Source of the DNA: a virus
Virus record (IMG/VR): IMGVR_UViG_3300030580_000022
Coordinates: 1-42,392 of that record
Reading direction: 5' to 3' (one strand)
DNA length: 42,392 nt
Below the pieces are notes generated by a model. That model saw only the letters and a list, made by a program, of their open reading frames with translations, did not search any database and had not been told where the DNA came from. Positions within the stretch are counted from its first letter, which is position 1; each line of letters starts with the position of its first letter. The position numbers were made by a program, and so were the translations under genes. This document shows positions 1,442-42,392 of this stretch, piece by piece.

Positions 1442-2185
1442 ATGGCTACCAAGCAACCGGACGATACGCCTGCAGGCATTTCAGGCTCAACAGGCTCAGC
1501 AGCGTCAGCAACAGGCCGCGATGGCCGCCGCCGGCAACGCGCTGCCGCAACTGTTCGGAGGCCAGCAGCAGCCTCAAGGGCTGCCGATGCAGGTACCGCA
1601 GCCACCACAACCCGGTCAATCGTCGGCACCTCCGCAGCAGCAAGGCCAACCGCAGGGACAGCCCGGTGGTGGAGTGCCGTTGCCACAAGGTCCGGTTCCC
1701 GGTCAGGTACAACGGCCGCCGCTGCCCCCGGGTGGCGTGCAGGGCGCAATGCCGCAGAGAGGGGTTCCGCCGTTCAAACCGTTGCCTACATCTGCGTCTC
1801 CTGCGCAGGCGTCGCCAGGCGCCATTCCGCCGCCGCCCGCTGCGTCTCCTCAGCAACAGCAGCCCTCGGGCCCGCTCTCACTCGAGAGTGCCGTGAAGGT
1901 ATTGCAGGACCAAGGATTGAGTGGTGCTGACCTGATGGCGGGATTGCAGCAGCTCACGCCTATTCTCGACTCGCAGGCTAAGGCACAGGCCGCGCAGTTG
2001 CAGCAGCAGTTCCAGCGCGAGTTGCAAATGGCGAATCTGCAGGAGCGCTACGACGCGCTTCGCCAGCGCGCTGAGGACAGCTCGGCAAACCGTGCTGATC
2101 GTGAACAGGCGCACGCCGACTCGGTGTCGCTGCGTGAGCAGATGATCGGAATGCAGCGGCAATCGCTCAATGCACGCCTGTTCGG
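1442..2185 (+). pseudogene. Fragment of a Pro/Gln-rich, probably phage virion, protein
   Basis: From about 1470 to 2185 the frame open from 1380 encodes a Gln/Pro/Gly-rich stretch (FQAQQAQQRQQQAAM onward), then an alpha-helical charged region (SLESAVKVLQDQGLSG through LREQMIGMQRQSLNARL). The nearest plausible start, ATG 1442 (MATKQPDDTPAG), is in another frame, so a frameshift near 1470 is likely. Past about 2185 the frame simply reads antisense through the integrase gene. Composition suggests a structural or ejection protein of a podovirus-like phage, but no family was recognised. It looks broken at both ends. Confidence 0.45.
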
Positions 2186-3311
2186 CATGCGCGTAGGCTG
2201 CCGTGACCTGATTCCGCTCAGCGTGCGCGAGTTGCCTGTCGACAACGTCACGGCTATAGCCGAGCTCGCGCAAGACCGTCGCGGCCAGGCCGCGGAAGCC
2301 GTGACCGGTCATGCGTGACTTGTAGCCCATGCGATACAGCGCAAAGAGCATGGTGTTGTTCGAGATCGGTTTGCGCCCCTGCACGCTGTAGAAAACGTAA
2401 CGCTCATGGCCGTTCAGCTTACGGAGTTCCGCAAGCACCTCGAGAGCCTGGCTGGAGAGCGGAACGATGTGCGGGTCGCGCATCTTCATCCGTTCGGCGG
2501 GCACCCGCCACTCCGCGGCCTTCTCGTCGAACTCCGACCATTCGGCGTTAATCATTTCCTTCGTGCGGGCGAAGGTCAGCGCCATGAACTGCAGCGCGAG
2601 CCGCGTGACGATCTCACCCTCATATGCCGCGATATCGCGCATCAACTGCGGGATATCGAGCGTCTTGACACGAGCCATGTGCTGAACTCCCGGCCCTTTC
2701 TTGAGCACAGTCTCTGCATCGATGTCGGCGGCCGGGTTGCGAGTGCACCGTCCGGTCATAATGCCGTACTGGAAAACCGCGCGGGATCGTTGCAGGATGC
2801 GTTTGGCGGTCTCGCGCACACCGCGCGATTCGACCGTTCGCAGGATCTCAAGCATCTGCGGCGCGTCGATGTCCCTGATTGGCTTGCTGCCAATGCGAGG
2901 GAACACGTCTACCTCGAGCGAGTTAATGACCTTCCCGGCATAGACCTCGCTCCATCCGTCTTTCTGGTTCTCGAACCACTCGCGGGCGACTATTTCGAAC
3001 GACGACGCCGCTTCGATTGCCTTTTCCCGCTTGACCTGCTGTTTCTGGACGGACGGATCGATGCCGGCCGAGATCTGTTTGCGCGCGGCAATGCAGGCAT
3101 CGCGCGCTTCAGCCAGCGACACTTCGGGATAGACCCCGAAAGAGGCGGTTTTTTCCTTTCCGTCGATCCGGTATTTCATCCGCCAGTATCGCGAGCCATT
3201 CGGCATGATCTGCAGGTACAGGCCCTTGCCGTCAGCCAGTCGATAGGGCTGATCGGCAGGCTTGGCCTTCTTGACCTGCAGCTCGCTCAGCGGGGGAATC
3301 AGTTTAGGCAT
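1878..3311 (-). CDS. P4-type tyrosine integrase with replaced C-terminus
   Basis: Site-specific recombinase for the element left of the tRNA. The start is taken at MPKLIPP (3311); the open frame extends further upstream but is not family-like. Residues 1-90 match the Arm-binding DUF4102 module (LADGKGLYLQI, YPEVSLAEAR). The catalytic set is visible: R249 (FARTKE), H337-x-x-R340 (HGFRG), H363 (LAHAERN) and Y373 (AAYAHAE). Directly after the tyrosine the family pattern stops at about 2180. The remaining 100 codons are antisense to the Pro/Gln-rich gene and are not integrase sequence. The active site survives, but the trans-packing C-terminal helix is probably lost, so activity is doubtful. It reads away from the 3' end of the tRNA, the usual layout for a P4-type island. 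Confidence 0.85.
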   Translation of the reverse strand: MPKLIPPLSELQVKKAKPADQPYRLADGKGLYLQIMPNGSRYWRMKYRIDGKEKTASFGVYPEVSLAEARDACIAARKQISAGIDPSVQKQQVKREKAIEAASSFEIVAREWFENQKDGWSEVYAGKVINSLEVDVFPRIGSKPIRDIDAPQMLEILRTVESRGVRETAKRILQRSRAVFQYGIMTGRCTRNPAADIDAETVLKKGPGVQHMARVKTLDIPQLMRDIAAYEGEIVTRLALQFMALTFARTKEMINAEWSEFDEKAAEWRVPAERMKMRDPHIVPLSSQALEVLAELRKLNGHERYVFYSVQGRKPISNNTMLFALYRMGYKSRMTGHGFRGLAATVLRELGYSRDVVDRQLAHAERNQVTAAYAHAEQACIERLPLHSDHLLTQRHRVGVRLFTISTVCRAVLSALAKRVVALLQIRHLQLALELLLQLRGLCLSLRVENRRELLQSRHQVSTTQSLVLQYLHGTLE

Positions 3312-3372
3312 GGTTTTGGGGGTATCGCGTTTGGGGGTATTTGGCGATAGTCCCACCTGTACCCCCAAAACC
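3312..3372. promoter_or_regulatory. Inverted repeats at the P4-type integrase promoter
   Basis: GGTTTTGGGGGTA (3312-3324) is exactly complementary to TACCCCCAAAACC (3360-3372), with a third direct copy TTTGGGGGTAT at 3330-3340. This lies over and just upstream of the integrase start. P4-type integrases are known to bind arm sites next to their own promoter and repress it; that role here is inferred. Confidence 0.5.
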
Positions 3373-3491
3373 AACTGGTAGTAGTTGGTCATCTGTGGGC
3401 AATGATGGCAGCTAGAAACCCCGCCACGCAAGGCTGTGCGCGGTTATGGAATTTCTATTTTGGAGGTATTGGGAGAAGATGGGAAGGTCTT

Positions 3492-3566
3492 TGGTCCCCC
3501 CGACAGGAATCGAACCTGTATCTAGCGCTTAGGAGGCACTTGTTCTATCCATTGAACTACGGGGAG
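3492..3566 (-). tRNA. tRNA-Arg (anticodon CCT)
   Basis: On the minus strand the acceptor CTCCCCG pairs with CGGGGGG, the anticodon stem AGTGC/GCGCT encloses loop CTCCTAA (anticodon CCT, reading AGG), and the T arm ACAGG-TTCGATT-CCTGT is intact. CCA is encoded at 3494-3492. This tRNA is a common integration target. Its 3' end faces the P4-type integrase, consistent with that element having inserted here. Confidence 0.95.
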
Positions 3567-3784: not shown

Positions 3785-4885
3785 ATGGCTTCAATCCTGC
3801 CAGTAGGCAGTCGCTGGCGTGCCCAGGTGCGCAAGCGAGGGCAGAGTATAGCAAAAACGTTCAAAACCAAAGCAGCGGCAGAAGCGTGGGCGCGGGAGAA
3901 GGAAGTAGAGATCGACAAGGGTCAGAACGCCGTCGACGCGGCGACTGTGACGGTCGGCGATCTCGTCAAAAGGTATCGCGAGGCGCGTGCCGAATCAGAC
4001 CGGGCAGTCAAACCAAAATCGAATGAAGACTACATCCTGCAGCGGTTGCAGGATGCGTTCGAAAGTCACTTTGCGTCGCGGCTGACGACGCAGCAGATCG
4101 TCAAGTTTGCGCAGGATCGCAGGAAGGCCGGCGCGGGCGGATACACGGTCGATATGGATATCTCGAAGCTGGGTACGATGCTACGCCATACGGCGTCGCT
4201 ACTCGGCCTGACGTTGCCGGATGCGGTTGGTGCCGCGCGGCCGACGCTGCACCATCTGCGCCTGATCGAGGCTGGCAACAAACGCGACCGCCGGCCGACA
4301 GCGGACGAAATCGAAAAGATCTTCGAGTGGTTCGCCGAACATCCGGAACGTGAGCAGGCCATGCCGGACCTGTTGCGCGTGGCCATACAGTGCGCGTTCC
4401 GCCGTGGCGAGCTGTTCAATCTGCGTTGGGATGACATAGACGCTGAAAACCATATTGCTCTTGTGCGTGACCGCAAGCATCCGCGTCAAAAGGTCGGTAA
4501 CAACGAGTGGATTCCGCTGATTGGGGATTCCTTTGAGGTCATCATGCGGCAGCCGCGTTACCCCGTGCCTGACGCCTATGCGGCGCAGCGTCAGCAGGAT
4601 CCGACCACGCCGCCACACAAGAACGAATTTATTTTCCGGTTCGACAAGGGGACAGCGAGCAAGTATTTCAAGCAGGCATGCGATGAGAAGGGCATAACGA
4701 ACCTGCACTTGCATGATCTGCGACATGAGGCGACCAGTGCGCTGTTCGAGGCCGGCTGGCAGATCCCAGAAGTTGCGGCCGTAACGGGTCACAAGGACTG
4801 GCGCAACCTGAAGCGGTATACGAACCTCGATCCAGCACAGGTTGCGAAGAAAGGTCGTTTAAAGCTCGCTGTCGTCAATGACTAG
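3785..4885 (+). CDS. int: Prophage tyrosine recombinase (integrase)
   Basis: Catalyses integration and excision of the prophage. It has 366 residues, typical for phage integrases. Residues 1-50 form an Arm-binding-like module, about 55-150 the core-binding domain, and 170-360 the catalytic domain with R206 (FRRGE), H310-x-x-R313 (HDLRH), H336 (TGHKDW) and Y345 (LKRYTNL), so the active site is complete. The ATG follows the TGCTACA repeat cluster. It carries one copy of the prophage-wide palindrome at 4062-4072 (codons for ESHF). It is the leftmost gene of the main prophage and is transcribed convergently with the membrane protein at 4891. Confidence 0.95.
   Translation: MASILPVGSRWRAQVRKRGQSIAKTFKTKAAAEAWAREKEVEIDKGQNAVDAATVTVGDLVKRYREARAESDRAVKPKSNEDYILQRLQDAFESHFASRLTTQQIVKFAQDRRKAGAGGYTVDMDISKLGTMLRHTASLLGLTLPDAVGAARPTLHHLRLIEAGNKRDRRPTADEIEKIFEWFAEHPEREQAMPDLLRVAIQCAFRRGELFNLRWDDIDAENHIALVRDRKHPRQKVGNNEWIPLIGDSFEVIMRQPRYPVPDAYAAQRQQDPTTPPHKNEFIFRFDKGTASKYFKQACDEKGITNLHLHDLRHEATSALFEAGWQIPEVAAVTGHKDWRNLKRYTNLDPAQVAKKGRLKLAVVND
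4062..4072. repeat. Palindrome AAAGTCACTTT (site 1)
   Basis: First of seven exact copies of AAAGTNACTTT spread over the prophage; here inside the integrase gene. See the finding on this repeat. Confidence 0.7.
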
Positions 4886-33222: not shown

Positions 33223-36200
33223 GAGACATCGTCGGGGCGAAGGGCGGCGGGAGCAGCAGCTCGGGCAGTGAATCGCCCGACAGCCTGCATAGCACTGCCT
33301 ATGCAAAGGTACTCGATCTGGTCTCGGAGGGCGAGATCCGCGGCCTCGTCAACGGCCTGCAATCGGTCTACCTCGATAACACACCCATTCTCAACCCGGA
33401 CGGGTCGAGCAACTTCAGCGGCTACACAGTCGACTATCGCTGGGGCACGCAGGATCAGGATTACCTGCCGGGCTTTCCGTCTGTGGAAAGCGAGCATGCG
33501 GTCGGCGTCGAGTTGAAGTCGACGGCGCCGTGGGTACGTGCCATCGCAGATTTGCAGCTCTCAGCCGTACGGATCCGGCTGGCCGTGCCGCAACTGCAGA
33601 AGACCGACACGGCGACGGGCGACATCAAGGGCTATCGCATTGAATACGCAATTGACCTGTCGACGGACGGTGGAGGATTCCAGCAGGTTTTGACCGGCGC
33701 GTTCGACGGCAAGACCACGTCGCTCTATGAGCGCAGCATCCGCATCGAACTGCCGAGGGCAACGGCGGGCTGGTCTATCCGTGTACGGCGTCTCACGCCG
33801 AACGCAAACAGCACGGTCATTGCCGACACGACGAACATCGAGGCGATCACCGAGATCATCGACGCGAAGCTGCGTTACCCGATGAGCGCGATCGTCGGCC
33901 TGAAGGTCGACGCCTCGCAGTTCCAGTCGGTGCCGACACGGTCATTCGACCTGTACGGTCGTGTCATTCGCGTGCCGGCGAACTATGACGCCACCTCGCG
34001 CAACTATTCGGGTGTGTGGGACGGTACGTTCAAGCTCGCCTGGACAGACAATCCCGCATGGGTCTTTTATGACCTGGTGCTGAACGACCGGTACGGTCTG
34101 GGCGCCGTCGTCAACGCATCGCAGATCGACAAGTGGTCGCTGTACCAGATCGCGCAATATTGCGACGTGCTGGTGTCGGACGGCAAGGGCGGTCTGGAGC
34201 CGCGCTTTGCGTGCAACGTCTACATCCAGTCGCAGACGGACGCTTACAAGGTGCCGCAGGATCTTGCGGGCATCTTTCGCGGCATAGCTTACTGGGTGGC
34301 CGGCAATGTCGTTGCGGTGGCCGATATGCCGCGCGATCCGGCCTATGTGTACACGGCGGCGAACGTGGTTGGCGGTAGCTTCAAATATGTCGGCAGCACG
34401 CGCAAGACCCGTTACACCGTTGCGCTGGTGTCCTGGAACGATCCATCGGACCTGTACAAACAGAAGGTCGAGTATGTCGAGGACGCGGATGGGATCTCGC
34501 GATACGGGGTTCAGAAGACCGATATCTCGGCGTTTGGCTGCACGTCGCAGGGACAGGCGCAGCGTGTCGGCCAGTGGGCGCTGCTGACGTCCCGGCTGGA
34601 GACTGAGACGGTGACGTTTCAGGTCGGGCTTGACGGCACCATTGCGGCGCCCGGCCAGATCGTGGCGATCGCGGATCCAGCCCGCGCGGGTCGCCGAACG
34701 GGCGGGCGGATCCGTGCCGTGGACGGGCGCAAAGTGACTTTGGACCAGGCGTCGGTCATGGTTGCCGGCGACACGCTAACCGTCATCCTTCCTAGCGGCC
34801 TTGCTGAGAAACGCTCCATCAAGACCGTTAGCGGTAACGAGGTGACGGTCAGCGCCGACTGGTCGGTGGCGCCGTCGCCCGAAGCGATCTGGATGGTGGA
34901 GGGCGCCGACGTTGTCGCGCAGTTGTTCCGGGTCGCGTCAGTAAGCGAGCAGGATGGTCTGATCTTCGAGATCTCGGCCACGCAGCATGAACCGGGCAAG
35001 TTCGACGCGATCGACAATGGCACGCGGATCGACGCGCGGCCCGTGACCGTTATCCCTCCGTCCGTGCAGCCGCCGCCGTCAAATGTGCGCCTGTCGACCT
35101 ACAACGTGATCGATCAGGGTATCGCCAAAACGGTAATGACGATCGCGTGGGACGCGGCTGACAAGGCAATCGCGTACCTGCCCGAATGGCGTAAGGACAA
35201 CGGCGAGTGGGTGAGCGTGCCGCGCACCGGCTCGCTCAGTGTCGAGGTGTCCGGCATCTATCAGGGCGCCTACGTCGCGCGGGTGCGCGCGGTCAATGCG
35301 CTCGACGTGACCTCGATCCCGGCCTGGTCGGTCGAGACGCAACTGCAGGGCAAGACCAGCCCGCCTCCGGCTGTAACTTTCCTGCGCACGCAGCCGCTTG
35401 TGTTTGCGATCCGGATCGATTGGGGTTTCCCTGCTGGCGCGGACGATACGCAGCGCACCGAGGTCTGGTACAGCAGGACGCCTGACCGGGCAGATGCGAA
35501 CAAGCTGTCGGACTACGCGTATCCGCAGGCGACGACGACGTACCAGGGGCTTGCTGCTGGGCAGTCGTTCTTCTTCTGGGCGCGGCTTGTCGACCGCTCC
35601 GGAAACATCGGCCCGTGGTATCCGGCCGGTGCCGGCGTGAACGGACAGAGTAGCTCGGACGAAAGCGATTATGAGAGGTACTTCGCCGGCACGATCACGA
35701 AGAGCGCGCTCGGCACGGATCTGCTCGGTGCGATCGAGAGTGTCGAAAACGTGGGTGACCAGCTCACGCACCTGGCCGACCAGATGGATGCTGTGCAGCA
35801 GGATGTAGCGCGCGTCGATGGGATAGTGGCGCGGTTCAATCCGCCGATGGCCGGATCAACCGCGGATCTCGCGGGCAACTCGGCACGGATGGCAGGCGTC
35901 TGGTCCGAGCAGGCCGCGCGTGCAGAGGCCGACATGGCGGTCGCGCAGCGTGTCGATAACGTCGCGGCGGTGGCCGGCAATGCGTCGGCACTGGTGAAGC
36001 AGGAGACCAATGCTCGCGTAACAGCCGATAAGGCGATGGCGTCGCAGATCACGACTGTACAGGCCAAGGTCGCGGATAACGAGGCGGCGGTCCAGACGGT
36101 TGCACAGTCCTACGCCGACCTGAACGGCCGCGTGAGTGCGTCATACAGCATCAAGACGCAGATCACGGCCAACGGCAAGACCTACATCGCCGGTATCGGC

Positions 36201-36560
36201 ATCGGTGTCGATAACAGCAGCGGGGTAGTCGAGTCTCAGGTGCTGGTCGCGGCGAGCCGCTTTGCCGTGCTCGATCCGAACGGCACCACGGTGACAGCGC
36301 CTTTCGTGATCCAGGGCGGGCAGGTGTTCATCTCGCAGGCGCTGATCGGTACTGGCTGGATCCAGAACGCGATGATCGGTGACGTGATCCAGTCGACGTC
36401 GGTGGGTGCAAACGGACAGCCCCGCTGGCGGCTCGACAAGAATGGCACGCTCACGATGAACGGCGCGAATGGCGGCAACGGCTATCTCACGCTGAACGAC
36501 TCGACGCTGCTGGTCTTCGATGGCAATGGCACCTTACGTGTCCGTTTGGGGCTCTGGTGA
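33219..36560 (+). CDS. Host specificity / tail tip protein J-like
   Basis: Encodes 1113 residues. The N-terminal LHSTAYAKVLDLVSEGEIRGLVNGLQSVYLDNTPI is the J family signature, followed by hub domains (NYSGVWDGTFKLAWTDNPAWVFYDLVLNDRYGLG), fibronectin-III-like regions (about 600-790) and a coiled-coil plus variable beta C-terminus (from about 860), which in lambda contacts the receptor. It contains a palindrome copy at 34730 (codons RKVTLD). It ends at the TGATG junction with the next gene. Confidence 0.93.
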   Translation: MRDIVGAKGGGSSSSGSESPDSLHSTAYAKVLDLVSEGEIRGLVNGLQSVYLDNTPILNPDGSSNFSGYTVDYRWGTQDQDYLPGFPSVESEHAVGVELKSTAPWVRAIADLQLSAVRIRLAVPQLQKTDTATGDIKGYRIEYAIDLSTDGGGFQQVLTGAFDGKTTSLYERSIRIELPRATAGWSIRVRRLTPNANSTVIADTTNIEAITEIIDAKLRYPMSAIVGLKVDASQFQSVPTRSFDLYGRVIRVPANYDATSRNYSGVWDGTFKLAWTDNPAWVFYDLVLNDRYGLGAVVNASQIDKWSLYQIAQYCDVLVSDGKGGLEPRFACNVYIQSQTDAYKVPQDLAGIFRGIAYWVAGNVVAVADMPRDPAYVYTAANVVGGSFKYVGSTRKTRYTVALVSWNDPSDLYKQKVEYVEDADGISRYGVQKTDISAFGCTSQGQAQRVGQWALLTSRLETETVTFQVGLDGTIAAPGQIVAIADPARAGRRTGGRIRAVDGRKVTLDQASVMVAGDTLTVILPSGLAEKRSIKTVSGNEVTVSADWSVAPSPEAIWMVEGADVVAQLFRVASVSEQDGLIFEISATQHEPGKFDAIDNGTRIDARPVTVIPPSVQPPPSNVRLSTYNVIDQGIAKTVMTIAWDAADKAIAYLPEWRKDNGEWVSVPRTGSLSVEVSGIYQGAYVARVRAVNALDVTSIPAWSVETQLQGKTSPPPAVTFLRTQPLVFAIRIDWGFPAGADDTQRTEVWYSRTPDRADANKLSDYAYPQATTTYQGLAAGQSFFFWARLVDRSGNIGPWYPAGAGVNGQSSSDESDYERYFAGTITKSALGTDLLGAIESVENVGDQLTHLADQMDAVQQDVARVDGIVARFNPPMAGSTADLAGNSARMAGVWSEQAARAEADMAVAQRVDNVAAVAGNASALVKQETNARVTADKAMASQITTVQAKVADNEAAVQTVAQSYADLNGRVSASYSIKTQITANGKTYIAGIGIGVDNSSGVVESQVLVAASRFAVLDPNGTTVTAPFVIQGGQVFISQALIGTGWIQNAMIGDVIQSTSVGANGQPRWRLDKNGTLTMNGANGGNGYLTLNDSTLLVFDGNGTLRVRLGLW
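34730..34742. repeat. Palindrome CAAAGTGACTTTG (site 6)
   Basis: Perfect 13-bp copy inside gene J. Confidence 0.75.
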
Positions 36561-36868
36561 TGACGGCGGGTCTGCAGATTTTCGATGCGCGCGGAAACGT
36601 CGTGTTCGACGCGACATACCGTGTGTTGCGTATCGCCGGAAGCGTCTACATCAACGGGGGCGGCGGCAGTCTTGTCGACGGTCGCCTCGCGCAGGGTGGT
36701 TTTGTGTCGTTCCAGCCTGACGTGACGTGTGGCGACGGGTATTTGTCCGGAGGCGTGATCACGCCGCGTTTTTCGATCTCGGGCAGCACGCTGACGTGGT
36801 CGTATGCCGACAGGCACAACAACTACGACATTGTTCAGTCCGGTTTTGTTTTTTATGGAGGGAGCTAA
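36560..36868 (+). CDS. Small tail-tip-associated protein (MTAG paralogue 1)
   Basis: 102 residues from ATG 36560, overlapping the J stop. Beta-rich: MTAGLQIFDARGNVVFDATYRVLRI, then a Gly-rich loop and SGSTLTWSYAD near the C-terminus. The same FDA-G-x-x-x-x-D start and x-W-Y/SY-strand are found in the next gene, so they share a domain. Probably a receptor-binding or tip accessory protein. Confidence 0.65.
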   Translation: MTAGLQIFDARGNVVFDATYRVLRIAGSVYINGGGGSLVDGRLAQGGFVSFQPDVTCGDGYLSGGVITPRFSISGSTLTWSYADRHNNYDIVQSGFVFYGGS

Positions 36869-37614
36869 TGACGGCGGGGTTTCAGGCATGGACCGATTCC
36901 GGTCTGGTGCAGATCGACGGAACCACGCCGAACTATGCACTGCGTCAGAGCTTCAATGTGGGGACCAATGGCGGCGATATGCCTGCGGGCAAGTCGAACA
37001 GCGGCAACCAGTACACGCTCAGGGCGAACATCGTGGACTTTACGGTCTACGCCGCGACACCGCTGATCGTGCTGTACAGCCCCAACGCGTACGCGACGAT
37101 CCTGCGATGTATCCGGCAGGAAGCGAACACATGGGCCGTTCGGTTGTGGTCGAACAACTCGGCAACGATCGGCGTGTACGTCTTCGACCAGGCATCCGCT
37201 GCCGTGCCTTCTGGACCCGGTTTCGGGCTGCAGGTCTTCGACGCAAATGGGACGCTCATCGCGGATGCGCGTCAGCGACTTGCCAGGGTGATCGACACGC
37301 GGGCGGGCAACATCAACAACGCAGGAGCGGGTTTCGGTCAGTGGGGGCAGGTCGATCAGCGTTCGTACTCCTGGTCATATCCGGGTGTGAGCAAGATTGG
37401 TGTCGCGGCGATCGGCACGGCGTTCGTATCCAGTCCGACCGGCGGTAGCAACAGCGGCTGGTACAACATGAGTGGACTCCAGACGACCGGCAACACGATT
37501 AACCTGAACTATGCGTACTACCAGCAGGGCAACACGTCCCACCCTGGCAACAACAACTGCTTTGGTTCTCAGTACGACTGGCGATTCATGGCCGTTGACC
37601 TGAGCAATATCTGA
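36868..37614 (+). CDS. Tail-tip-associated protein (MTAG paralogue 2)
   Basis: 248 residues, coupled to the previous gene by TAATG and also starting MTAG. Residues about 110-190 (FGLQVFDANGTLIADARQRLARVIDTRAGNI to RSYSWSYPG) repeat the whole plan of paralogue 1. The C-terminus is Asn/Tyr/Gly-rich (NYAYYQQGNTSHPGNNN). A virion receptor-binding role is inferred from position after J. Confidence 0.65.
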   Translation: MTAGFQAWTDSGLVQIDGTTPNYALRQSFNVGTNGGDMPAGKSNSGNQYTLRANIVDFTVYAATPLIVLYSPNAYATILRCIRQEANTWAVRLWSNNSATIGVYVFDQASAAVPSGPGFGLQVFDANGTLIADARQRLARVIDTRAGNINNAGAGFGQWGQVDQRSYSWSYPGVSKIGVAAIGTAFVSSPTGGSNSGWYNMSGLQTTGNTINLNYAYYQQGNTSHPGNNNCFGSQYDWRFMAVDLSNI

Positions 37615-37627
37615 TCTGGAGAACACC

Positions 37628-37942
37628 ATGCCTTTAAAGAAGGATTACGTAACGCCGGCGACCGGCGCAACGGCGAACTATCACGTCGCGCAGATCGTCA
37701 CGCTCGATGCGATCGGCAAAAACACCTCTGTGTCGGTGGCCTCGTTTCTGAATGACGCAACGTATGCAGCCGGCAAGGCGCCGCTCTACACACAACTGAT
37801 TGTCGTCACCGGTCTGCCGGTCGACGGCAAAGACGCCTTCGCGTTCTCCGAGCAGCAACTCGCCGCAGAGCAACCGGAGAGCGACCCGACGCCGATGTTC
37901 GCAAACCGGTACACGTTCGCGGATGCCGAGATCGTCGAATAA
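37628..37942 (+). CDS. Small late protein, unrecognised
   Basis: Encodes 104 residues with GGAG before the ATG. Beta-rich and acidic at the C-terminus (QLAAEQPESDPTPMFANRYTFADAEIVE). Last gene before a strong terminator; probably the last tail gene of the late operon. Confidence 0.6.
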   Translation: MPLKKDYVTPATGATANYHVAQIVTLDAIGKNTSVSVASFLNDATYAAGKAPLYTQLIVVTGLPVDGKDAFAFSEQQLAAEQPESDPTPMFANRYTFADAEIVE

Positions 37943-37965
37943 CAGGATATACGCGTACATCGCGG

Positions 37966-37988
37966 GCCGCCTTCGGGCGGCTTTTTTT
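37966..37988 (+). terminator. Intrinsic terminator at the end of the tail genes
   Basis: GCCGCC (37966-37971), TTCG loop, GGCGGC (37976-37981), then seven T. Confidence 0.88.
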
Positions 37989-38025
37989 ATGGCTGCTTTC
38001 AAAGCGGCTTTTTATCGGGGATCCC

Positions 38026-38370
38026 ATGTCTGCAGTGCATCACCCTCCTGACTCCCGTCGTACCTGGTTCGACGGAACCATCAACATCCCGACCGTGATC
38101 TCGGTCATCGGAGCGGCGGTCGGCGCGACCGTGTTCTGTGTCGGGCTCTACAACAACGTCGCCGAGCGCGTGCTGATTCTTGAGGAGCACGACCGTCAGC
38201 AGGAAATTCACTTCCAGGGCATCGAGCGGGACCAGGCCGCGCTGCGCAGCGACGTGAAGGACCAGTTGAAGGGCATCAGCTCTGACATCAAGGACACCAA
38301 CCTGAAGCTCGACCAGCTCCTCTATAACCGCGCCGGTCCCCGACCCGAGCCCAAAGGATGGATCCGATGA
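38026..38370 (+). CDS. Holin-like single-pass membrane protein
   Basis: Encodes 114 residues. A soluble N-terminus is followed by one membrane helix (VISVIGAAVGATVFCVGLYNNVA, about residues 24-46) and a charged coiled coil (LEEHDRQQEIHFQGIERDQAAL). Located directly upstream of the next holin-like gene, with ATGA overlap. It may be a holin, antiholin or lysis accessory. Confidence 0.6.
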   Translation: MSAVHHPPDSRRTWFDGTINIPTVISVIGAAVGATVFCVGLYNNVAERVLILEEHDRQQEIHFQGIERDQAALRSDVKDQLKGISSDIKDTNLKLDQLLYNRAGPRPEPKGWIR

Positions 38371-38636
38371 AACTGAAACTTACGCTGGCCGATGGCTGGC
38401 AACGCCTGCACATGCGCGGCAGCGTGATCCTGTCGACTGCACTTGCGGCCGTCTCCGCCTTTGGTCCGGTCATTCGTGACGCGTGGCGCAACGTTCCAGA
38501 CGATCTGAAGGCCATCATTCCGGCCCACGCACAGCAGGCGATCGCGTACGCGATCCTGTTCGCGTCGATCGTCGCGGTGCGGTACACGGCAATCCGCCGC
38601 GTGCCGAAGGAGGGCGTCGATGACGGTCATCAGTAG
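38367..38636 (+). CDS. Holin candidate
   Basis: 89 residues from ATG 38367 (AAAGGATGG upstream; ATG 38358 also possible). Two hydrophobic segments, SVILSTALAAVSAFGPVI (about 19-36) and QQAIAYAILFASIVAVRYTAI (about 56-76), and a charged C-terminus are holin-like. It overlaps the endolysin start by 17 bp. Confidence 0.65.
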   Translation: MKLKLTLADGWQRLHMRGSVILSTALAAVSAFGPVIRDAWRNVPDDLKAIIPAHAQQAIAYAILFASIVAVRYTAIRRVPKEGVDDGHQ

Positions 38637-39126
38637 TGGCGCCGCTGGCGGGACGCAGGTCGTCGCATTCATGGACATGCTTGCGGTGGCCGAGGGAACG
38701 GGCACAAGCCCGATCACGCGATGCGACGGCTACGACGTCATTGTCACCGGCGTCGACGGCCGACACCGTTTCGACGATTTCTCAACGCACCCATTCGCGA
38801 ACGGGAGGTCGTCGATCGTCGTGAACAGCAAGGGGCTCACGTCGAATGCATCCGGCCGGTACCAGCACATGCTGAAGGACTGGCCGCACTACCGCGATCT
38901 GCTGCGCCTGCGTGACTTCGGCCCCCTGTCGCAGGATCGGTGGTGCATCCAGTTGCTGAAGGAACGACGCGCAATCCAGCCGCTGCTCGACGGCGATCTC
39001 GCCACCGCGATAGCGCGATGCACAAACATCTGGGCCTCTCTGCCCGGCAACAACTATGGGCAGCCTCAACACACGTTCGACATGTTGCGTGCTGCCTTCA
39101 TTCTCAACGGAGGAAATCCATGCTGA
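38620..39126 (+). CDS. Endolysin, lambda R-like transglycosylase (GH104)
   Basis: Encodes 168 residues with GAAGGAGGG upstream. Cleaves peptidoglycan. The segment AFMDMLAVAEGTGTSP carries the catalytic E25, matching lambda R; GYDVIVTG, SNASGRYQHM, DFGPLSQDRWCIQLLKERRA and RCTNIWASLPGNNYGQ are all shared. No signal sequence, so release depends on the holin. Confidence 0.93.
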   Translation: MTVISSGAAGGTQVVAFMDMLAVAEGTGTSPITRCDGYDVIVTGVDGRHRFDDFSTHPFANGRSSIVVNSKGLTSNASGRYQHMLKDWPHYRDLLRLRDFGPLSQDRWCIQLLKERRAIQPLLDGDLATAIARCTNIWASLPGNNYGQPQHTFDMLRAAFILNGGNPC

Positions 39127-39497
39127 CCGCTGTTTTCAATTCCGCGTGGCCCGTGATCGTTGCAGCTGTTGTCGCTGTGGGTGGCGTGATCTACGCATTC
39201 GTGAAAGGCCGGGTGGCCGATACACAGGCCGCGCGATCTGCGCAGCAGGTTGCAGAAGCCCAGACCGTCGCCGCTCAGGCGAAGACTGAAACCGCTGAGG
39301 TGCGCGATGCCGAGGCACAGGCGAACACGGCGGCCGCGCAAGCGGCTGCGCAGGCCGTAAAGGAGAGAACCGATGTGGAAAACGTCATTAGCGCTTTGCC
39401 TGCTGGTGGCGCTCAGCAGCGGCTGCTCGACCAGTGGTCGCGTGGCGACGGCGCCGAGCGCGCAGCCGGAGGTGCAGGTCAGAACCCGGATCATTGA
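39120..39497 (+). CDS. Rz: Inner membrane spanin Rz-like
   Basis: 125 residues from ATG 39120, overlapping the endolysin end. An N-terminal membrane anchor (about 10-28, VIVAAVVAVGGVIYAFV) is followed by an Ala/Gln-rich periplasmic coiled coil (AARSAQQVAEAQTVAAQ). Pairs with the Rz1 lipoprotein to fuse the membranes at lysis. Confidence 0.88.
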   Translation: MLTAVFNSAWPVIVAAVVAVGGVIYAFVKGRVADTQAARSAQQVAEAQTVAAQAKTETAEVRDAEAQANTAAAQAAAQAVKERTDVENVISALPAGGAQQRLLDQWSRGDGAERAAGGAGQNPDH

Positions 39498-39630
39498 CAC
39501 CGGATGCGACTGGACGCGGCCGATCTACGTAAGCGCACTGGACGTGCTGACCGATGCCACCGCGCAGGCGATTCTGGCGCATGACGAAGCCGGCGCCGCG
39601 CATTGCGGTTGGGCGCGCAGATCGAAATAA
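39373..39630 (+). CDS. Rz1: Outer membrane spanin lipoprotein Rz1-like
   Basis: 85 residues embedded for half its length in the Rz gene in another frame, as in lambda. Signal peptide MWKTSLALCLLVALSSGC with lipobox LSSGC (C18 is the lipidated residue). It has additional Cys (C45, C78). Confidence 0.88.
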   Translation: MWKTSLALCLLVALSSGCSTSGRVATAPSAQPEVQVRTRIIDTGCDWTRPIYVSALDVLTDATAQAILAHDEAGAAHCGWARRSK

Positions 39631-39657
39631 AAAGACGCCCGCTCGAAAGAGCGGGCG
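39626..39657 (-). terminator. Terminator of the leftward 39745 gene
   Basis: CGCCCGCTC (39636-39644), GAAA loop, GAGCGGGCG (39649-39657). Read leftward it is followed by T-T-T-T-T-A-T-T-T. It may also end the lysis operon, but the rightward T run is missing. Confidence 0.7.
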
Positions 39658-39744
39658 CAAGCGTTCGGGGATCCAGTCTGAACGCGAACGCCATGGTAGG
39701 GCGGTGGCGCACGCTCGGACAGCATGAAATCGTCCGGCGTCCAT

Positions 39745-40086
39745 TCATCTCTCGTCGCGTTCATTTTTCTTGCCGCGATATCGCACTGACGGCAAATGAC
39801 CACCCGCCTCACTCGCGCGGATGGTCTCCTGGACCAGCTTGACCTGAAGCGCGATCAGCGGCGAGGCGTGGTCGACCGGCACCTGAGAAATCGATCGCAC
39901 TTCCTTGACGCTGGCGTCGACGAGGGAGCGCATCCGCATCAGCATCTGGCGTTGATGCTGGATCTCAAGGATCAGACGTTCGATGTCTTCGTTGCTTCGA
40001 TGCTCATGCCAGAGCACACGCAACTCGGTCAGCGAAGGGGGAACGAAGGCGGGCAGGTTCACGGCATTGGCAGCAAAAAATATCAC
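39745..40086 (-). CDS. Small leftward phage protein, unrecognised
   Basis: The open frame begins at 40257 (TTG), but family-like sequence begins near GTG 40086 or GTG 40062. The helical core is DIERLILEIQHQRQMLMRMRSLVDASV, followed by a polar C-terminus. The inverted repeat CACTGT/ACAGTG (40084-40103) over the start could be its operator. It is the only leftward gene after the lysis genes. Confidence 0.5.
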   Translation of the reverse strand: MIFFAANAVNLPAFVPPSLTELRVLWHEHRSNEDIERLILEIQHQRQMLMRMRSLVDASVKEVRSISQVPVDHASPLIALQVKLVQETIRASEAGGHLPSVRYRGKKNERDER

Positions 40087-40146
40087 TGTGTAAACAGACA
40101 GTGTTTTGCTGTGACGTGGTACGTCCCTCAAATTGCAGTTCAGCAC

Positions 40147-40159
40147 CAAAGTTACTTTG
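40147..40159. repeat. Palindrome CAAAGTTACTTTG (site 7)
   Basis: Perfect 13-bp copy in the intergenic region between the leftward small gene and the methylase. Confidence 0.75.
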
Positions 40160-40267
40160 ATCGCGTTTTGTGACGCGGGAGAAGACAGGGCGGCCGGGTT
40201 GATGTTAGAGCATCTTCCCGGCCGCCTTTCCACTGAAGCAGCCAGTGAATTAGCCAAGGCCCTGACA

Positions 40268-40279
40268 CCTACCGGTAGG
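40268..40279. promoter_or_regulatory. 12-bp palindrome before the methylase
   Basis: CCTACCGGTAGG is a perfect palindrome 42 bp before the methylase ATG. Possible operator. Confidence 0.35.
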
Positions 40280-40320
40280 CGGGGCGAATTCTAACAAATT
40301 CCCAACAAGGCAATCCACAT

Positions 40321-41112
40321 ATGGCAACACCCATCATTCCATGGATCGGCGGCAAGCGCCGCCTCGCGGATCACATCATCCCGCGCTTTCCGGCACATGA
40401 GTGCTACGTCGAGGTGTTCGCTGGCGGGGCCGCGCTTTACTTCATGCGCCCGCCGGCAAAGGTTGAAGTGATCAACGACATCAACGGCGAGCTGGTGAAC
40501 CTGTACCGCGTCGTGCAGCACCACCTCGAGGAGTTCGTGCGCCAGTTTAAATGGGCGCTGTCGAGCCGGCAGGTGTTCAAGTGGCTGCAGGACACGGTCC
40601 CGGAAACGCTCACCGATATCCAGCGCGCGGCACGGTTCTACTACCTGCAGCAGAACTGCTTTGGCGGGAAGCTGGAGGGGCAATCATTCGGCACGGCGAC
40701 GACGACGCCACCAGGCCTGAATCTGTTACGGCTCGAAGAGACCCTGTCGGCCGCGCACCTACGGCTGTCCAGCACGTTCGTTGAGCGGCTCGACTGGAAG
40801 ACCTGCATCGACAAGTATGACCGGCCGCACACGCTGTTCTATCTCGATCCGCCATATTGGGAGACGGAAGGTTACGGCGTGCCGTTTCCTTACGCCGAAT
40901 ACGTCGAGATGGCGTCGCGACTTCGGTCGCTGAAGGGCCGGGCGATCGTCAGCCTGAATGACCATCCGGATATCCGGCGGGCATTCGAGGGCTTTCACAT
41001 TGAGGCATTGGACGTCAAATACACCGTTGGCGGTGGTGGCCGTGAGGCTGCTCGGAAGGAGGTGATTATTTTCAGTTGGAACGATGCTGCACAACCGGCG
41101 GGTCTTTTCTAG
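40321..41112 (+). CDS. Orphan DNA adenine methylase (D12 class, Dam-like)
   Basis: Encodes 263 residues. AdoMet motifs: WIGGKRRL (8-15), EVFAGGAAL (31-39), and the catalytic DPPYW (176-180). Transfers methyl from AdoMet to adenine N6. No restriction partner is adjacent, so it is an orphan. It may protect phage DNA or alter regulation. It has no obvious strong RBS but is close to an upstream palindrome. Last clear prophage gene. Confidence 0.9.
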   Translation: MATPIIPWIGGKRRLADHIIPRFPAHECYVEVFAGGAALYFMRPPAKVEVINDINGELVNLYRVVQHHLEEFVRQFKWALSSRQVFKWLQDTVPETLTDIQRAARFYYLQQNCFGGKLEGQSFGTATTTPPGLNLLRLEETLSAAHLRLSSTFVERLDWKTCIDKYDRPHTLFYLDPPYWETEGYGVPFPYAEYVEMASRLRSLKGRAIVSLNDHPDIRRAFEGFHIEALDVKYTVGGGGREAARKEVIIFSWNDAAQPAGLF

Positions 41113-41345
41113 TCGCTAATCGGTCCATGTGATCGTAAATGACACGCGCAATGCAAATTGGGTAGACGCACTGGACTAAAACGGTAAATATCTTGGTTGC
41201 ATGCTGATTGAATAATCTGAATATGCATAATGAATTATATACTTACATAAATATTTTGTAACAATTACATTAACATTATTATTAATTGATCAGTTACTCT
41301 CATCAGGCACCTATTCGTGGTGCTTTCAATCTTGGAGCATAAAAA
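41113..41345. promoter_or_regulatory. AT-rich promoter region of the peptide-MFS unit
   Basis: The base composition falls sharply after the methylase. A TTGTAA (about 41258) with TATTAT/TTATTA at 15-17 bases and a TATACT near 41237 are candidate promoter elements. GCACC/GGTGC (41307-41323) forms a small hairpin. GGAG at 41334-41337 is the RBS of the peptide ORF. No gene is seen. No copy of the left boundary sequence was found, so the right attachment site is not located. Confidence 0.45.
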
Positions 41346-41420
41346 ATGCAAAGCCCGAAAGTTATCCTGATCAAGAAAAAGCGTACGTTCATTCTGGCTC
41401 AAGCAAAGCCGTATCTTTGA
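41346..41420 (+). CDS. 24-residue basic peptide upstream of an MFS transporter
   Basis: Strong RBS GGAG 8 bases before the ATG. The product begins MQSPKVILIKKKR and ends AKPYL: six Lys/Arg, no acidic residues, no Cys. It has no recognised family. The ORF is followed by several hairpins and an MFS transporter gene in the same direction. Two readings are possible: a leader peptide regulating the transporter by ribosome stalling, or a precursor/peptide product exported by the transporter. The second is not supported by any visible modification gene in this window. Confidence 0.55.
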   Translation: MQSPKVILIKKKRTFILAQAKPYL

Positions 41421-41436
41421 TTAGGTACATGCTCAA

Positions 41437-41619
41437 CGACTAAAGTCTTTGATTAGTCGGGGGACGCTGGAGCGTAAGAATTAGTGCTCCAGCGTGTCTC
41501 TACAAAACAGAGAGACGTCTGTAATACATTTTCCTAAGAATCGAGTAATATATTTCTCAAAAGCACCTGTGACCTTCTGCCGAACACCATGAGGCGAAAT
41601 CGAGAGGATTGGGTGCTTT
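41437..41619 (+). promoter_or_regulatory. Run of hairpins between peptide and transporter
   Basis: CGACTAA/TTAGTCG (41437-41443, 41453-41459); ACGCTGGAGC/GCTCCAGCGT (41464-41473, 41486-41495); GTCTCT/AGAGAC (41496-41501, 41511-41516); AAAGCACC/GGTGCTTT (41560-41567, 41612-41619). TCTTTGATTAG is also directly repeated at 41414 and 41447. The 225-nt leader with alternative stems is what an attenuation mechanism would look like; a partial terminator after the peptide gene is the alternative. Confidence 0.5.
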
Positions 41620-41644
41620 AAAACCGTGAAATGCGGGGTCCAAA

Positions 41645-42392
41645 GTGAAGTTTTCAAAAATACTATTCACGGTAAATAGTTCGGGGATGCTTGTATGTAT
41701 ATTCGAGTCTATCATCGGATTTTCGTTTATCGCATTTGCAAGTGAATCTCTGAATAGCTCAAATGGTAGCAATCTGCTGCTGATTTTCTTCTGGGCATCA
41801 TTGTTCCTATTTGAGCTTCCCACCGGTTATATCGTCGATCGATTGGGTGCCAAACTTTCAATCTTGCTTTCCCTTGCTCTGCGGGCAATTTCTTTTCTGA
41901 TCTATTATAAGAGCGACGGTGGTTTGGTTTATTTGATAATTGCAAGTGTATTATCTGGTTTCGCGGTTACAGTAATGAGCGGATTGTTCTCCGCGCAGGT
42001 TATCAATTGGGCAAAGGATGAGCGCGCGGAAGTTGATGGGAAGGGAATGACAAAGTCGGGTATGCTGGTAAGAGGATCTTCTGCAATATTAGGTTCTCTG
42101 ATTGGCTTCGAGATTGTTAAAAAGTTTAATATAAATTTCGTCTGGCCCATATCCATAGCTATCGTCGTTATTGCAATGGTTCACATACTGTTCCTATGGA
42201 AAAATGTAAAATCAAAAGAGACGACTGATATAAAAAGCCATTATAAGTCTAGCCTTAAACATATCCGTACTCAGCGGATATGGGGGAGCGTGACAAAAAT
42301 CTCGACGATGAGGGGAATCCAGGTCGCAGTAGTAACCAACAGTACGGTCTACCTAGTTCCCGGATTAGCCAAAACACCCGATAAACTCCTGT
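41645..42392 (+). CDS. MFS transporter, partial at window end
   Basis: Open to the window end, 249 residues seen. GTG 41645 is the first start after an in-frame stop and has GGGG 7 bases upstream. At least six membrane helices: about 12-33, 43-58, 74-90, 95-118, 142-162, 167-188. The A-motif-like loop ELPTGYIVDRLGAKLSI (58-74) identifies a major facilitator. Low GC unlike the phage genes; recent acquisition or a different source is likely. The exported substrate cannot be inferred. Confidence 0.8.
   Translation, partial: MKFSKILFTVNSSGMLVCIFESIIGFSFIAFASESLNSSNGSNLLLIFFWASLFLFELPTGYIVDRLGAKLSILLSLALRAISFLIYYKSDGGLVYLIIASVLSGFAVTVMSGLFSAQVINWAKDERAEVDGKGMTKSGMLVRGSSAILGSLIGFEIVKKFNINFVWPISIAIVVIAMVHILFLWKNVKSKETTDIKSHYKSSLKHIRTQRIWGSVTKISTMRGIQVAVVTNSTVYLVPGLAKTPDKLL

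Follow-up and report, generated by a model that had tools for sequence, protein, structure and literature searches.

The right end of the window, by which we mean the whole 42,392-nucleotide stretch analysed, appears to carry moron-type prophage cargo: a gene for an efflux-type MFS permease, preceded by a structured leader that holds a probably real small ORF. We assign this reading a probability of about 0.4. Should the small ORF prove genuine and act together with the permease, the phage would carry either an inducible pump, conferring a regulated tolerance on its lysogens, or a minimal exported-peptide cassette. Otherwise the segment would be just a further foreign transporter gene, in a cargo slot of a known type. 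The record holds a soil prophage, comprises 42392 bases and has an open right end. The features discussed are listed in Table 1.

Table 1. Positions of the prophage, permease and leader features in the window
Feature	Position	Strand	Basis and remarks
Prophage tyrosine integrase gene	3785..4885	+	Pfam Phage_integrase; adjoins tRNA-Arg(CCT); left boundary
Phage Dam-type DNA adenine methyltransferase gene	40321..41112	+	PHROG 56, E 5e-96; the cargo slot follows this last of the conserved phage genes
AT-rich cargo segment, in the slot between Dam and attR and open on the right	41113..42392	.	GC profile; no DNA match; no att core
Hairpin AGGCACC-TATTCGT-GGTGCTT, just 5′ of the Shine-Dalgarno sequence of the small ORF	41306..41326	+	Fold z -4.2; 0/200 shuffles as stable
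Shine-Dalgarno sequence (GGAG) that precedes the ATG of the small ORF by 8 nt	41334..41337	+	Sequence
Small ORF MQSPKVILIKKKRTFILAQAKPYL, 24 codons, net charge +6	41346..41420	+	ORF list; phage-like synonymous codons
Strong GC-rich hairpin ACGCTGGAGC-loop-GCTCCAGCGT	41464..41495	+	z -4.4; 43 nt past the stop of the small ORF; no U-tract
Long-looped stem AAAGCACC/GGTGCTTT, 5′ of the MFS start	41560..41619	+	z -2.3
Arms ACCGTGAA/TTCACGGT around the MFS start	41623..41673	+	z -0.6; fold not significant
MFS permease gene, GTG start	41645..42392	+	MFS_1 domain; 249 codons up to the contig end, incomplete

The cargo segment and its permease gene

On the left, the prophage integrase gene adjoins a tRNA-Arg(CCT) gene (3492-3566, minus strand). 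Replication, terminase and capsid genes follow to the right of the integrase, and the Dam gene is the last recognisable phage gene. Dam relatives with 84-97% identity were found in prophages of Paraburkholderia, Caballeronia and Burkholderia. The segment beyond Dam has a GC content of 0.40, against about 0.60 for the surrounding phage genes, and each of 60 comparable Dam-downstream segments exceeds it (minimum 0.476). The DNA to the right of Dam had no match in Dam-related viral and genome loci or in 145 Paraburkholderia genomes. The ORFs in this slot differ among the related prophages inspected, every one of which had a different content, and the AT-rich segment is therefore regarded as ordinary moron-type cargo in a variable slot. 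It has both the atypical base composition of such cargo and a varying slot within the att boundaries, attR itself lying outside the window.

Several Paraburkholderia genomes have the same junction of integrase and tRNA-Arg. In the viral contig L006 the att core lies about 475 bp beyond Dam, with a tRNA 5′ fragment and then the integrase after it, a layout like that of an attP or of a tandem junction. No copy of the core was found in the cargo segment, and a search for attR through direct repeats of the left end was also negative. From the conserved junction, the layout of L006 and the absence of a core in the segment, it is most likely that the cargo lies inside the prophage, with attR beyond the contig end. 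The sequence-only reading had placed these genes at the edge of a prophage, and this was borne out, the segment occupying the cargo slot that runs from Dam to the attR missing from the window. A search with the phage DNA for a host gave no useful match.

Morons of Burkholderia phages occupy insertion hotspots, and phi1026b has an expressed moron described as a 'major facilitator permease' (PMC2920897). Like the Burkholderia prophage morons, the cassette described here is a gene of atypical GC content at a hotspot, with conserved phage genes on one side and the att end on the other, and it shares with phi1026b an MFS permease as the moron. Unlike them, it includes a long structured leader in which a small ORF lies, and no sequence relative of it was found. 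More generally, this phage group has a variable cargo slot in the Dam-to-att segment, a good hunting ground for new lysogenic functions.

The permease matched the MFS_1 model over residues 13-236 with 57.3 bits (gathering score cut-off 33.4, E 1.6e-15). A low-GC MFS gene had been proposed from the letters alone; the gene and the low GC content (0.40 for the cargo segment) were confirmed, with the qualification that the gene is incomplete at the contig end. The best curated models were those of the TetA(P) and Tet(40) efflux transporters, both for the permease and for L264, the genome protein nearest to it (26% identity across 168 residues). For the permease, whose protein is truncated by the contig end, the scores were 26.1 bits for TetA(P) (E 3.5e-6, curated cut-off 750) and 19.3 bits for Tet(40) (curated cut-off 800). 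Unlike TetA(P) and Tet(40) it thus falls far below the curated cut-offs, and its gene is incomplete. The scores of L264 to Tet(40), TetA(P) and H+ antiporter models suggest that the permease is of the efflux type; its substrate and direction of transport are guessed from these distant models.

No relatives of the MFS protein were found in plasmids, in phage records or in 146 Paraburkholderia species, and three pattern sets run against viral contigs returned one identical contig only. Matches in genomes of Burkholderiaceae (398), of Pseudomonadota (398) and of the order (399) were all weak, with identities of roughly 20-35%. A separate scan of genome contigs for the MFS protein, which used exact motifs of 8 residues and would overlook remote relatives, found none. 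The identical contig, IMGVR_UViG_3300028795_000053 (L098), has the same sequence as positions 34402-42392 of the window and stops at the same base within the MFS gene, which suggests a branch in the assembly graph or an assembly common to both. It adds neither sequence past 42392 nor divergence. This contig aside, the pair of peptide and transporter had no relative as a unit in the collections searched. A defence-system scan of the MFS protein and a few window ORFs gave no match, and a single-sequence structure prediction of the incomplete MFS protein was unusable (pLDDT 48).

The small ORF and the structured leader

The 24-codon ORF and its ribosome-binding site, previously pointed out from the sequence, were both confirmed. 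Taken alone, the ORF and its Shine-Dalgarno sequence do not exceed chance: when the 532-nt intergenic region was shuffled with dinucleotides preserved, 17% of the shuffles contained an ORF with an ATG start, a Shine-Dalgarno sequence and 24 or more codons, which is not significant. In its choice of synonymous codons the ORF resembles the genes of the phage itself (P 0.002-0.005 with three local-composition backgrounds); the codon-choice P of about 0.003 is from a single post hoc test and is uncorrected. Of about 95 windows compared, whether in-frame, out-of-frame, intergenic or antisense, this one had the lowest value, and in-frame windows of the MFS gene mostly did not reach that value. As its synonymous codons match those of the phage, the small ORF is probably translated. 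The further claim that it is not a shadow ORF gains moderate support from this codon choice.

Relatives of the peptide were found neither in viral contigs, searched with exact-motif patterns, nor in 146 plus 249 genomes; as a positive control, the same genome search recovered the peptide in the window. Matches to 8-residue motifs of the peptide elsewhere were in unrelated frames and were discarded. An exact 11-nt direct repeat, TCTTTGATTAG, lies over the stop codon of the small ORF (41414-41424, plus strand) and again at 41446-41456; 3.8% of shuffles contained a repeat of 11 nt.

All four inverted repeats attributed to the leader are present (41437-41443/41453-41459, 41464-41473/41486-41495, 41560-41567/41612-41619 and 41623-41630/41666-41673), except that the last of them spans the MFS start and so does not lie wholly in the leader. 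Nine perfect 7-nt inverted-repeat seeds were observed in 41421-41680, against 0.9 expected (P about 0.001). The main hairpin, formed by the second of the four repeats, is well past chance, and together with its surroundings (41432-41525) it gave a fold z of -5.2. The hairpin on the other side of the small ORF may act as a weak terminator of upstream transcription or as a 5′-UTR stem. An Rfam search of the leader gave no match, and no relatives of the leader DNA were found in 145 Paraburkholderia genomes. The stem of the main hairpin also occurs in 21 other viral contigs, most of them in a recurrent coding-like context; none resembles the leader described here, and these occurrences were not taken as relatives. 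A 5-codon ORF, ATGCGGGGTCCAAAGTGA, at about 41631-41648 overlaps the MFS start and was considered for translational coupling; it has no Shine-Dalgarno sequence and was set aside.

The small ORF could also have arisen by chance in non-coding DNA that is AT-rich, in which case the cassette would consist of the MFS gene with an incidental upstream region. The shuffling result, the failure to find relatives of the peptide and the non-significant hairpin over the MFS start are all consistent with this explanation, which is opposed by the phage-like synonymous codons, with a value the lowest of about 95 windows, and by the strong hairpins on both sides of the ORF. We consider it rather unlikely.

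The motif GGTGCTTT(C/A)AA is found twice, at 41319-41329 before the small ORF and at 41612-41622 before the MFS gene. As AAAGCACC at 41560-41567 could pair with either copy of GGTGCTTT, a switch is possible.

Attenuation, peptide export or a leader of the permease mRNA as possible functions

Two functions had been suggested for the small ORF and its leader, translational attenuation of an efflux pump and a small exported-peptide system. In a more detailed form of the first, a drug or metabolite would stall ribosomes on the 24-codon leader peptide, the leader would refold and the efflux permease would be turned on, as in mef(E)/mel, erm and cmlA. The mef(E) leader, of 327 nt, encodes a leader peptide and contains four pairs of repeats (PMC4335068). 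The layout of the locus is akin to it, with a short ORF led by a Shine-Dalgarno sequence, several inverted repeats and a gene for an efflux-type MFS protein; the excess of inverted repeats over chance and the direct repeat over the stop codon of the small ORF also agree with attenuation. The short ORF and the several inverted repeats before the gene are common to this locus and to mef(E)/mel, erm and cmlA. In contrast to those systems, the locus lacks an intrinsic terminator, none being found in silico between the small ORF and the MFS gene, and translation of the ORF is not predicted to affect the permease start. A simulated ribosome placed anywhere on the ORF gave an accessibility of the MFS start of 0.27-0.28 versus 0.27, in what is a thermodynamic model only. 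The peptide is unlike the known leaders quoted and has 24 codons as against 8-20, and the Shine-Dalgarno sequence of the small ORF is itself predicted to be about 85% paired (accessibility 0.15). Given the lack of a terminator and the unchanged predicted access to the MFS start, attenuation lacks support in this modelling, and we judge it distinctly unlikely.

In a similarly detailed form of the second suggestion, the basic 24-residue peptide would itself be the product, bacteriocin-like or modified. An abundant short mRNA would end at the hairpin, the MFS protein would export the peptide, and a modification or immunity gene would lie past the contig end. This is consistent with the probable coding function of the ORF, with its phage-like codons, and with the strong hairpin 43 nt past its stop codon, which is free of a U-tract and resembles the mccA-mccB hairpin of E. 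coli; in the microcin C operon of that species a hairpin follows mccA (PMC6495379). Minimal mcc clusters offer a precedent, in that only mccA, mccB and an exporter are needed, as does the MccA of Nocardia vaccinii, which is basic and has 21 residues (PMC9239234).

The locus shares with microcin C clusters a short basic peptide ORF, a strong hairpin soon after it and an MFS gene nearby. Unlike them, it has no C-terminal Asn, no visible ThiF/MccB gene and no MFS protein like MccC of E. coli. The C-terminal Asn is strictly conserved in microcin C precursors (PMC9239234), whereas the peptide ends in Leu, in agreement with the original remark that it does not end in Asn. No ThiF-type (MccB) gene is present between the peptide and the MFS gene, inside which the contig ends. 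A BLASTP comparison of the permease with MccC, using the E. coli protein only, gave an E value of 8.5 over 11 residues, and the similarity of the peptide to MccA of N. vaccinii was not significant (P 0.10). The only other short plus-strand ORF ending in N was a TTG ORF at 41449, which has no clear Shine-Dalgarno sequence. A microcin C cluster was rejected on this evidence, namely the C-terminal Leu, the lack of a visible ThiF gene and a permease unlike MccC of E. coli. The cassette could nevertheless work in a microcin C-like manner.

Export of the peptide is on the whole improbable. One specific form of it would be an undescribed prophage peptide cassette made up of the +6 24-mer, a short hairpin-ended mRNA and a dedicated MFS exporter, microcin C-like in layout and different in C-terminus and exporter family. 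We regard that form as very doubtful; if true, it would provide lysogens with a competitive or signalling trait. Neither attenuation nor an exported peptide has positive evidence here; of the two kinds of function, cis-regulation is somewhat more likely than peptide export.

Moron-type cargo is the preferred reading. Base composition, position in the slot, protein domain, hairpin strength and codon bias were observed; the transcript, its regulation and the substrate we infer. The cassette would occupy the variable Dam-attR slot of a lambda-like Paraburkholderia/Caballeronia prophage, and its TetA(P)/Tet(40)-like permease would pump a small molecule out of the lysogen. The AT-rich 5′ region would most likely be the permease mRNA's own leader, on one transcript starting from a promoter 5′ of the small ORF. 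The small ORF and the hairpin would then set how much of this transcript is retained or extends by read-through into the permease gene. Against this reading, the peptide and the permease were not seen together in any relative, no sigma-70-like promoter was found on the plus strand, no link between the ORF and the permease start was seen in silico, and the permease gene is incomplete.

The left end of the window

An Rfam int-alpA RNA (RF02996, 56 bits) is located at 139-206 on the plus strand, just 5′ of a 362-aa ORF (210-1298) that had no Pfam, PHROG or PADLOC match. A second tyrosine integrase (1878-3431, minus strand), with Arm-DNA-bind_3, Phage_int_M and Phage_integrase domains, lies across tRNA-Arg(CCT) from the first, so that two integrases flank one tRNA gene. 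Each half of this arrangement recurs in Paraburkholderia genomes, and both sides are found together in one viral contig (L034). In the interval 1380-2320, the homology of relatives to the left integrase begins at ~2181, and the ORF runs on into an unrelated Q/P-rich stretch. The left integrase sequence thus suggests that a recombination junction lies here and that the left element is damaged.
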